This document shows, piece by piece, positions 42,049 through 43,886 of a stretch of DNA of 64,000 nt. The notes beneath the pieces were generated by a model that saw only the letters and a program-made list of their open reading frames with translations, was not told where the DNA came from and searched no databases. How positions within the stretch are numbered: position 1 is the first letter of the stretch; every line of letters starts with the position of its first letter. Source of the DNA: an uncultured Bacteroidia bacterium (GTDB lineage Bacteria; Bacteroidota; Bacteroidia; Bacteroidales; UBA932). The stretch is taken from contig CACWOH010000002.1 of the NCBI GenBank assembly GCA_902762435.1, forward strand, positions 39,447 through 103,446. The letters are read 5' to 3'. A program made the translations under genes and the position numbers.

Positions 42049-42492
42049 ATGACAGCACATTATACCAGCAAGCACGGCCAGGTGGCCAAGCGCCCCGAGG
42101 AAATGTATATGGTCTTCACCGACCTGCGCAATTTCGCGCAGATGATCCCGCAGGACAAGGTCCAGGCGGAGGTCGAGGCCGATTTCGACCATCTGACCGC
42201 CACGGTGCAGGGCTTCCGCATCGGCCTGCGCGTGGACGAACGCCAGCCCTACCGGCTGATCCGCCTCGGCAGCGCGGAGTCGCCGGTGGAGTTCGTGGGC
42301 GTGCTGCACTTCGAACCTTCCGCGATTCCGGGCCGGACCGATTTCTGGATCGACCTGGACGCCAATCTCAACTTCATGATGAAGACGATGCTCGGCGGCA
42401 AGCTGCAGCAGGCGCTCGACAAGATGGTGGACGGCCTCGTGGACGCTTCCGAGGGCCGCATGCCGCAGATGCCGGACGATCTGCGCGGATGA
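42049..42492 (+). CDS. SRPBCC (START/Bet v 1-like) family protein
   Basis: 147 residues, a single helix-grip domain: MTAHYTSKHGQVAKRPEEMY at the start, MVFTDLRNFAQMIPQ, central strands FVGVLHFEPSAIPGRTDFWI, and a long C-terminal helix MLGGKLQQALDKMVDGLVDA. SRPBCC domains bind hydrophobic ligands; function unknown in Bacteroidales. Cytoplasmic. Its stop overlaps the rsmF start by 4 nt. Confidence 0.78.
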   Translation: MTAHYTSKHGQVAKRPEEMYMVFTDLRNFAQMIPQDKVQAEVEADFDHLTATVQGFRIGLRVDERQPYRLIRLGSAESPVEFVGVLHFEPSAIPGRTDFWIDLDANLNFMMKTMLGGKLQQALDKMVDGLVDASEGRMPQMPDDLRG

Positions 42493-43886
42493 TGGAGGAG
42501 GCGTCCGTCTCGATCCGCCTGAATCCTTTCAAGGGACTGGCGGGGCCGGAAGGCATCCCGGTCCCCTGGTCGCCCTATGGCCGCATCCTGGCGGACCGCC
42601 CCGTCTTCACCCTCGACCCCCTCTTCCACGCCGGCTGTTACTACGTCCAGGACAGCTCCGCGATGTTCGTCGGGCATTGCTTTAGGAAAATGCTCGGCAT
42701 CTCCCCGTGCAACGGCCAACTGCCTCCCGAAACGTCCTCCTTCGTCGGACCCCACCGCGGCGCTCCGCTTGCGGTCCCCCCTCTTACCGTGCCGAGGGTG
42801 GCAGGGTTTCCGGAGGCAGTTGCCGCTGCCACGGGGCAGGTTGAGCGAAGCGAAGTCCGCCTCAGCGGACCGGCCGGGCCCGGGACTTTTGCGCAGCGAA
42901 AGTCGGAAAGGGCCTTGAGGCCGCAGGGGGTGACAGGGGGCGGAGCCCCCTTAAAAGGCACAGGTACGGAACCTGTCAAGGTTCTGGACCTGTGCGCTGC
43001 CCCTGGGGGCAAAACGACGGACCTGGCGGCGTCGCTGCGGGAGGCCTTCGGCGACGGCTTCGTGCTGGTCGCGAACGAGGTGATGAAGGCGCGCGTGGGC
43101 ATCCTGGACGACAACGTCGCCCGCTGGGGCGACCCCAACGTGATCGTCACCTGTGCGGACCCGGCGGCGTTCGCGCGCCTCGCCGGCTGGTTCGACGTCA
43201 TCGTCGCGGACGTGCCCTGCAGCGGCGAAGGCATGTTCCGCAAGGACCCCCGCGCCCGGGAAGAATGGAGCCCGGCGGTGGTGGAACTCTGCGCCGCCCG
43301 CCAGAAACGCATCCTCGCGGACGTCTGGCCCGCGCTGCGCGAAGGCGGCCTGCTGATCTACAGCACCTGCACCTACGAAAGCGCCGAAAACGACGAAAAC
43401 CTGGCCTGGGCCGCCGCAGAGCTGGGCGGAGAGATCCTGGAGCCGGAAGATGAATTCAGGGACGCCGGCGTGCGCCGCACCCCGCACGGGCACCTGCTGG
43501 AAGCGGGCGTCGTGCCGGGAGAGGGCCAGTGGGCGGGCGCGCTGCGCAAGACCGCCCCGCAAGCGCTGGCGAAAAACGCCTCCCCGGCGGACCTGCACCC
43601 GGTCCGCAGCGGCCTGCGGAAGGGAGAGGCGAAAGGAAAGGACTTCATTCCGGACCCCGACTACGCGTTGAGCATAAAATTTGATAGCAAGGACTATCCG
43701 GCCGTGGACGTGGACCGGCAGACGGCCCTGCGCTTCCTCCACCGGGATGCGCTCGTGCTGCCGCAGGCCGCCCCCGGCTACAATGTGATCACCTATCTCG
43801 GCCACCCCCTGGGCTTCGTGAAGAACATCGGTTCCCGATGCAACAACCTGCTCCCGAAGGGCCGCCGGATCTTGATGAACGTATGA
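42489..43886 (+). CDS. rsmF: RsmF-type rRNA (cytosine-C5)-methyltransferase with large in-frame insert
   Basis: 465 residues. Family landmarks: SVSIRLNPFKG (7-17), DPLFHAGCYYVQDSSAMF (43-60), SAM motif I VLDLCAAPGGKTTDL (165-179), and the two catalytic cysteine motifs DVPCSGEGMFRKD and YSTCTY; a C-terminal PUA-like domain ends GFVKNIGSRCNNLLPKG. Between SAMF and motif I there are 104 residues where homologues I recall have about 14. The surplus of about 90 residues (71-160) is low in hydrophobic pattern and is encoded by a chain of hairpins. The frame stays open. The N-terminal about 25-30 residues common in homologues are missing, the start being coupled (ATGA) to the SRPBCC gene. Confidence 0.88.
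   Translation: MMEEASVSIRLNPFKGLAGPEGIPVPWSPYGRILADRPVFTLDPLFHAGCYYVQDSSAMFVGHCFRKMLGISPCNGQLPPETSSFVGPHRGAPLAVPPLTVPRVAGFPEAVAAATGQVERSEVRLSGPAGPGTFAQRKSERALRPQGVTGGGAPLKGTGTEPVKVLDLCAAPGGKTTDLAASLREAFGDGFVLVANEVMKARVGILDDNVARWGDPNVIVTCADPAAFARLAGWFDVIVADVPCSGEGMFRKDPRAREEWSPAVVELCAARQKRILADVWPALREGGLLIYSTCTYESAENDENLAWAAAELGGEILEPEDEFRDAGVRRTPHGHLLEAGVVPGEGQWAGALRKTAPQALAKNASPADLHPVRSGLRKGEAKGKDFIPDPDYALSIKFDSKDYPAVDVDRQTALRFLHRDALVLPQAAPGYNVITYLGHPLGFVKNIGSRCNNLLPKGRRILMNV
42705..42950 (+). repeat. In-frame hairpin-rich insert within rsmF
   Basis: Contains an imperfect 29-nt inverted repeat (42705-42733 with 42806-42834; the inner 17 nt match at 16 positions), then GTCCGC/GCGGAC (42855-42870), the palindrome CCGGGCCCGG (42874-42883), GACTTT/AAAGTC (42884-42904), GGCCT-TG-AGGCC (42911-42922), the core GCAGGGGGTGACAG (42923-42936) and GGGGGC-GGA-GCCCCC (42936-42950). 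The core plus a following hairpin also occurs in the rsmG insert, in the same reading frame. Confidence 0.65.

Follow-up and report, generated by a model that had tools for sequence, protein, structure and literature searches.

A palindromic, structured repeat family of Bacteroidales probably accounts for an in-frame insert in the methyltransferase gene rsmF

The window, a 64,000-nt stretch of DNA from an uncultured member of the Bacteroidales (contig CACWOH010000002.1), carries an rsmF gene that is longer than expected. Its ORF (nt 42489–43886, + strand) specifies 465 aa and runs without a stop codon across an insert at nt 42702–42952, which encodes residues ~72 to 155. What kind of DNA can enter so conserved an enzyme gene, and why is it tolerated there? 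In the first-pass annotation, made from the sequence alone, the extra DNA was described as a single palindromic element that left the frame open. The open frame is confirmed, Pfam domains are recognised on both sides of the insert (RsmF_N, RsmB/F methyltransferase and RsmF PUA), and the imperfect inverted repeat of about 29 nt is real, with arms of 31 nt. The element is also repeated and hairpin-forming, but it is not a single unit: the insert is a composite of module A (nt 42702–42837) followed by a distinct module B (nt ~42841–42952). The features are as follows.

nt 42489–43886, + strand: rsmF, 16S rRNA m5C methyltransferase family (ORF and Pfam)
nt 42702–42837, - strand (the strand favoured by wobble pairs; the model match is written on the + strand): module A, palindromic element (cmsearch, fold z-score, strand asymmetry)
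nt 42703–42733, + strand: module A outer stem, 5' arm, 31 nt, 81% complementary to nt 42806–42836
nt 42779–42783, + strand: pseudoknot stem S2, 5' side, CCCTC
nt 42790–42793, + strand: pseudoknot stem S1, 5' side, TGCC
nt 42794–42798, + strand: pseudoknot stem S2, 3' side, GAGGG
nt 42800–42803, + strand: pseudoknot stem S1, 3' side, GGCA
nt 42806–42836, + strand: module A outer stem, 3' arm
nt 42841–42952, + strand: module B, second repeated hairpin module, ends approximate
nt 42958–42974, + strand: near-inverted copy of nt 42979–42995, 17 nt, 88% complementary (inverted-repeat search)

The reading preferred here, with a probability of about 0.88, is that the insert consists of two members of a non-autonomous family of palindromic, structured repeats whose copies have become dispersed through this Bacteroidales family and are tolerated within protein genes. 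It is based on dispersed copies, insert-free alleles, in-frame copies in both orientations, a covarying pseudoknotted fold, and gene loops that are occupied in several species.

A search for homologous rsmF loci returned 39, of which 32 were aligned and 7 omitted (2 of these being partial matches); the named relatives are metagenome assemblies. At the insert site, 21 of the 32 have only a short linker (~20 residues or fewer), confirming that the segment is extra relative to homologues, and 11 have longer inserts of various kinds. The matched range is a multiple of three and stop-free in all 32, so that the rsmF linker is a repeatedly occupied place rather than a conserved domain. The A+B arrangement of the window recurs in one relative (L086), while module A occurs alone in L087 and module B alone in L089. 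Five relatives (L088, L091, L092, L095 and L102) carry module A in the reverse orientation, and L088 has in addition a second copy in the sense direction. Different GC-rich in-frame inserts with palindromic strings were seen in the rsmF genes of L090, L093 and L097; by eye, these and an insert in recG of genome G043 (L215) suggest one or several additional families. Arms of elements also persist as short remnants that keep the frame (L101, rsmF; L193, dsbD of G015; L023:911–935, rlmI), which suggests that copies decay by in-frame deletion too.

Further genomic copies, predicted by the first-pass annotation, were readily found. BLASTN gave 35 matches in the same genome (2.3 Mb), including the rsmF copy itself, and a covariance model of module A (137 positions, built from 27 copies) gave 38, two of which, one at an end of contig 1 and one at an end of contig 35, could be a single copy. 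The rsmF copy, which is also in the model, scored 115.8 bits (E 6.4e-27). Several module copies of this genome (G000) lie at contig ends (C1:1, C35:2, C18:36101, C17:45986 and C29:21), which makes it probable that the family interrupts the assembly and leaves copy numbers uncertain. Modules A and B are also found together in the tldD copy on contig 7, and apart at other sites; module B without a full module A occurs in fmt, in a GH92 gene, in polA (beside a partial module A) and at intergenic sites.

In a covariance-model search run under stricter filters, 33 of 37 genomes of the genus had module A matches, 1–42 apiece, and 24 genomes from other families of the order had none. A narrower, exact motif was present in 14 of 199 genomes of the family, representing 3 of the 25 genera sampled, and the reversed motif had no match in the same 199 genomes. 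A strict restriction to the genus, as suggested by the model search, was dropped because the motif occurs in three genera of the family. In 20 loci taken from three genomes of two other genera (G112 and G254 of genus g40, and G071 of g36) the model detected 21 copies. Carriage by phages or plasmids found no support: the pseudoknot motif had no exact match among viral contigs, and the rsmF insert had no match in phage or plasmid records at E 1e-5.

Module A is a real folded structure, with a pseudoknot that covaries in 87 copies. The rsmF copy has a fold z-score of -6.83 (0 of 200 shuffles as stable), and means over the 87 copies are -6.4 for one strand and -6.2 for the other. Module B alone has no significant fold (z = -1.3; 24 of 200 shuffles as stable) and the insert as a whole is moderate (z = -2.6; 2 of 200). 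Among the 27 copies of the model, both sides have changed in 26 of 44 pairs, and the covariation score of 0.248 compares with 0.110 for shuffled alignments (none of 500 reached it) and a maximum of 0.106 for slid ones. Stem S2 is fully paired (5/5) in 85 of 87 copies, using four pair types, and S1 (4/4) in 84 of 87, using three; the set includes the model's own copies, and S2 is part of the search model while S1 is not. A further 2-bp helix, outside the model, is paired in 74 of the 87 (shuffled maximum, 50). Read on the opposite strand, the core is in our interpretation an H-type pseudoknot.

Strand polarity is visible in the mismatches of the outer stem. On the + model strand, 51 scorable copies have 26 A.C versus 7 G.T mismatches (p = 0.0013); the 21 copies from other genera show 6 versus 2, which is not significant alone, and the pooled figures are 32 versus 9 (p = 0.0004). 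Such an excess of A.C over G.T fits folding of the complementary strand, and the asymmetry (A.C here, G.U there) points to one strand being the folded one. The preference in folding energy, once composition is controlled, is small (-6.65 versus -5.67 kcal/mol expected, p = 0.018).

The outer stems differ from the core in being specific to their sites, as near-identical cores carry different yet complementary stems, locus by locus. One explanation is that inverted copying of the host flank, at the time of insertion or afterwards, generates the outer part of the stem through fold-back synthesis or quasi-palindrome correction, so that each locus acquires its own stem. This is compatible with the preferred reading, and its chances are put at slightly short of even. 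In its favour, 12 of 16 copies in G112 have inverted repeats of 28–37 bp with no more than one mismatch, the outer part of which is unique to the locus, and in three of these the stem takes in the last 6–12 nt of a neighbouring ORF with a Pfam match. In the HI0933-like gene of the window's genome the host codons GGC TTC are retained and pair with GAAGCC on the far side, and in rsmF the 17-nt near-inverted copy (nt 42958–42974) mirrors the host codons for V-L-D-L-C of SAM motif I (nt 42979–42995). The five copies in G254 and G071, however, include none with a 28-bp stem. In the own genus, 25 of 51 copies, with differing stems, have an extrahelical C in the 5' arm at a distance of exactly 15 nt from the core, and correction should erase such a C. 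The bulge is not universal, since 13 of the 51 scorable copies have none in this arm and many copies of the second genus pair perfectly along the stem. The inner ~15 bp also look, by eye, homologous between copies, so that the stem is not wholly host-derived. The gcvPB locus was excluded as proof of host-derived arms because some alleles lacking a full element look like decayed ones; by eye, dsbD of G015, and perhaps gcvPB of G008 and G015 and pmbA of G015, have this appearance.

Candidates can be named for what moves the elements. Copies would propagate as selfish DNA (or RNA), and a mobilising enzyme presumably recognises the folded single strand. The best candidate for that enzyme, put forward tentatively and at well under even odds, is a REP-associated tyrosine (RAYT/Y1) transposase. 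The window's genome has three weak Y1-transposase matches, one of which was above the Pfam cut-off in one search and below it in another; two of the three resemble the NCBIfam model REP_Tyr_transpos, both below cut-off. Genomes of the genus with a Y1 match (27) average 14.7 elements versus 4.5 in those without (10; p = 0.019), and presence against presence gives a Fisher p of 0.052, both figures ignoring kinship and completeness. The association is a lead, and it has counterexamples: a Y1 match is missing from seven of the genomes with elements, and three such matches occur in a genome that lacks elements, several of these genomes being incomplete. Direct linkage to the RAYT-like genes was rejected, since none of the three RAYT-like loci of the window's genome (~3 kb each) contains a module A match. 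Two observations concern the RAYT-like genes themselves. At one of the three loci, L178:779–2205, the gene (nt 883–1833, - strand) is flanked by three copies of a palindromic repeat of ~87 bp, apparently a separate REP-like system; the same palindrome adjoins module A copies in L135 and L137. In L179:739–1917 another RAYT-like ORF appears, by eye, to include close to its end an in-frame segment that resembles module B (peptide SGPGTYSQRK).

The main alternative to a RAYT/Y1 transposase is spread through a structured RNA (here from the minus strand) that would be reverse transcribed and inserted, with the pseudoknot as the putative recognition site of the reverse transcriptase. The base-pair-level conservation of the pseudoknot and multi-hairpin core would suit this route, as would the wobble asymmetry favouring one strand, but G.T pairs are open to single-stranded DNA as well, and no Rfam 15 family fits any of 7 loci searched at E<=1 (a tRNA and a chance match, both outside the elements, were the only hits). 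An RNA intermediate is considered rather improbable.

Host genes could be assigned for 46 of the 87 model matches (16 in the window's genome and 30 in relatives; 41 unassigned), from homology in the case of rsmF and otherwise from Pfam matches to the ORF, some of which lie on just one side of the insert. Codon usage served solely to guess host frames when choosing ORFs for Pfam, and as these were chosen to be open through the element, insertions in broken genes would be missed. At least 16 copies of module A in the window's genome are in frame in conserved genes, encoding RsmF, a SpoU methylase, Xer, RibF, RNase R, TldD, PmbA, an HI0933-like flavoprotein, QueH, DsbD, RlmI, GcvPB, RecG, YgiQ and a THUMP-like methyltransferase, the last with two copies in one gene. 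Module B has PolA, a GH92 enzyme and Fmt as hosts in this genome. From the other genera, 3 of the 21 copies, all in g40, keep the frame of ORFs that have matches to CutC, a nucleotide-sugar dehydratase and MnmG.

Eight of these genes have elements in more than one species. The same loop is used in YgiQ, QueH, RecG and the SpoU methylase, and is judged from flanking peptides or domain positions to be used in RlmI, Xer, RNase R and TldD too. Filled and unfilled alleles can be compared: recG is filled in the window's genome and G015, unfilled in G008, G001, G006 and G018, and has an unrelated insert in the same loop in G043. For queH, the window's genome has module A, G008 has module B, G049 has a module A of a distinct kind and G018 has no module of either type. 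Alleles of the HI0933-like gene, pmbA and ygiQ, like those of recG and queH, occur without insert in other members of the genus. In the SpoU gene the copy of the window's genome is antisense and a sense copy is common to G008 and G015, making it, with rsmF, a gene with both orientations at one site. The loop that holds module A in the HI0933-like gene of the window's genome is occupied in G043 (L208:1–776) by an unrelated 45-nt unit, repeated four times in tandem and in frame, with the peptide IDANGQDLRQKLPES and variants.

The elements would be tolerated inside protein genes because they arrive or survive in a stop-free frame, and the frame is not arbitrary. A single codon phase is used by all 20 antisense genic copies that could be scored (6 more could not) and by 12 of the 16 such sense copies (4 more could not), the other four sense copies all having a type-3 core; as the copies share ancestry, these phase and frame counts are not independent as sequences. 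A second open frame is available in most copies. Where there is a choice, all 17 antisense copies and 11 of the 14 sense copies use the least basic frame, leaving three sense copies that do otherwise. Of 34 scorable genic copies, 30 have a core whose length is 2 modulo 3, versus 8 of 15 other scorable copies. The simplest reading of the phase pattern is selection against strongly basic peptides, with phase-biased insertion as a possible alternative. Selection would then remove insertions that lie outside tolerant loops or in frames encoding such peptides.

For RsmF itself, an AlphaFold2 model (alignment of 23 sequences) has a mean pLDDT of 79.3, with 362 of 465 residues at 70 or above, and segments below 50 at residues 72–154 and 156–158. 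The fold is retained around a very-low-confidence insert, which lies between a helix and the strand of SAM motif I, consistent with the surface loop by the SAM pocket envisaged in the first-pass annotation. The insert is expected from the model to be a disordered loop beside the SAM domain, and RsmF is predicted to be made with this added loop of ~84 residues and to stay active. That it is instead a functional protein domain, or a regulatory RNA, kept for the benefit of the host is very improbable: the fact that the same loops have been occupied repeatedly, in several species, would agree with it, but 21 of 32 rsmF relatives lack the insert and others have different sequences there, model confidence in the insert is very low, and both orientations occur at one site in the SpoU gene and in rsmF. 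Equally improbable is insertion at the apex of host palindromes already present, for which quasi-palindromes at the HI0933-like, gcvPB and one methyltransferase site are suggestive by eye but which found no support in 12 insert-free alleles (some perhaps decayed elements), these being not clearly richer in hairpins than the rest of their loci (fractions 0.08–0.98).

It is conceivable, although on balance doubtful, that the family represents an undescribed class of mobile element, with a conserved pseudoknotted single-strand core, an outer stem rewritten at each locus by inverted copying of the host, an inverted rather than direct duplication as the signature of insertion, and adaptation to genes through a fixed frame. 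To our knowledge, palindromic elements that are in frame and tolerated by proteins are known mainly from Rickettsia and Wolbachia, with scattered REP cases. The family described here adds a phylogenetically separate and data-rich system, with dozens of species, structure at the base-pair level, filled and unfilled alleles of the same genes, and opposite orientations at one loop. It makes testable how elements without a gene of their own move, and how new disordered segments enter conserved enzymes. For annotation it carries a warning, as a loop of this sort in an enzyme of these Bacteroidales can be an insert rather than a domain.

A literature search found no title or abstract opening describing this family, most subscription journals being outside its scope. 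Among known systems, nematomorph mitochondria are described as having long inverted repeats within functional reading frames (PMC6649704). Both arms of those coding palindromes encode conserved protein, whereas the present insert is missing from most relatives.

MITEs have conserved terminal inverted repeats common to their copies, together with a target-site duplication. Excerpts on Correia/NEMIS, ERIC and QMITE elements describe small, non-autonomous, dispersed elements that are sometimes fused in frame (PMC2229807, PMC10969869). The present elements are likewise small, non-autonomous, dispersed and in frame in genes. The terminal stems of module A, however, pair but vary in sequence from copy to copy, and no target-site duplication was noticed in a few allele comparisons, in which boundaries were uncertain.

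Rickettsia palindromic elements and their Wolbachia counterparts are palindromic repeats of ~100–150 bp, and the Rickettsia elements lie in frame in unrelated conserved genes as well as in intergenic DNA, with solvent-exposed peptides, according to the sections cited (PMC3767692, PMC2229807, PMC10969869); Gmk is said there to remain active with such an insert (PMC2229807). Module A resembles them as a dispersed palindromic repeat within the range of ~100–150 bp, in frame in conserved protein genes and apparently also between genes. It differs in having a host of a different phylum. Three further features may also set it apart: its GC-richness, the pseudoknotted core with covarying stems and the almost exclusive use of one codon phase per strand. 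The proposal of a Bacteroidales palindromic element is supported, and its relation to the Rickettsia elements is one of behaviour: by analogy, the family appears to behave as they do.

REPs are hairpins of 20–40 bp with an unpaired GTAG or CGTC tag. Module A shares with REPs and RAYTs its hairpins, its intragenic positions and, going by weak matches, perhaps the presence of RAYT-like genes in the same genomes. It differs in its length of ~137 nt and its pseudoknot, in not lying beside the RAYT-like genes of its own genome, and in lacking a GTAG or CGTC tag shared by every core type; a CGTC string adjoins the core of types 1 and 2 and is not in type 3 copies. Precedents exist, in the passages cited, for intragenic REPs in several species, including about the same recB site in two Xanthomonas, and for CGTC REPs without a dedicated transposase (PMC3733652). 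The nearest published hint found is RAYT subclass 2.6 of Bacteroidetes, which is reported to have atypical secondary structures on its flanks, copies of these being present in other parts of the genome as well (PMC6006769).
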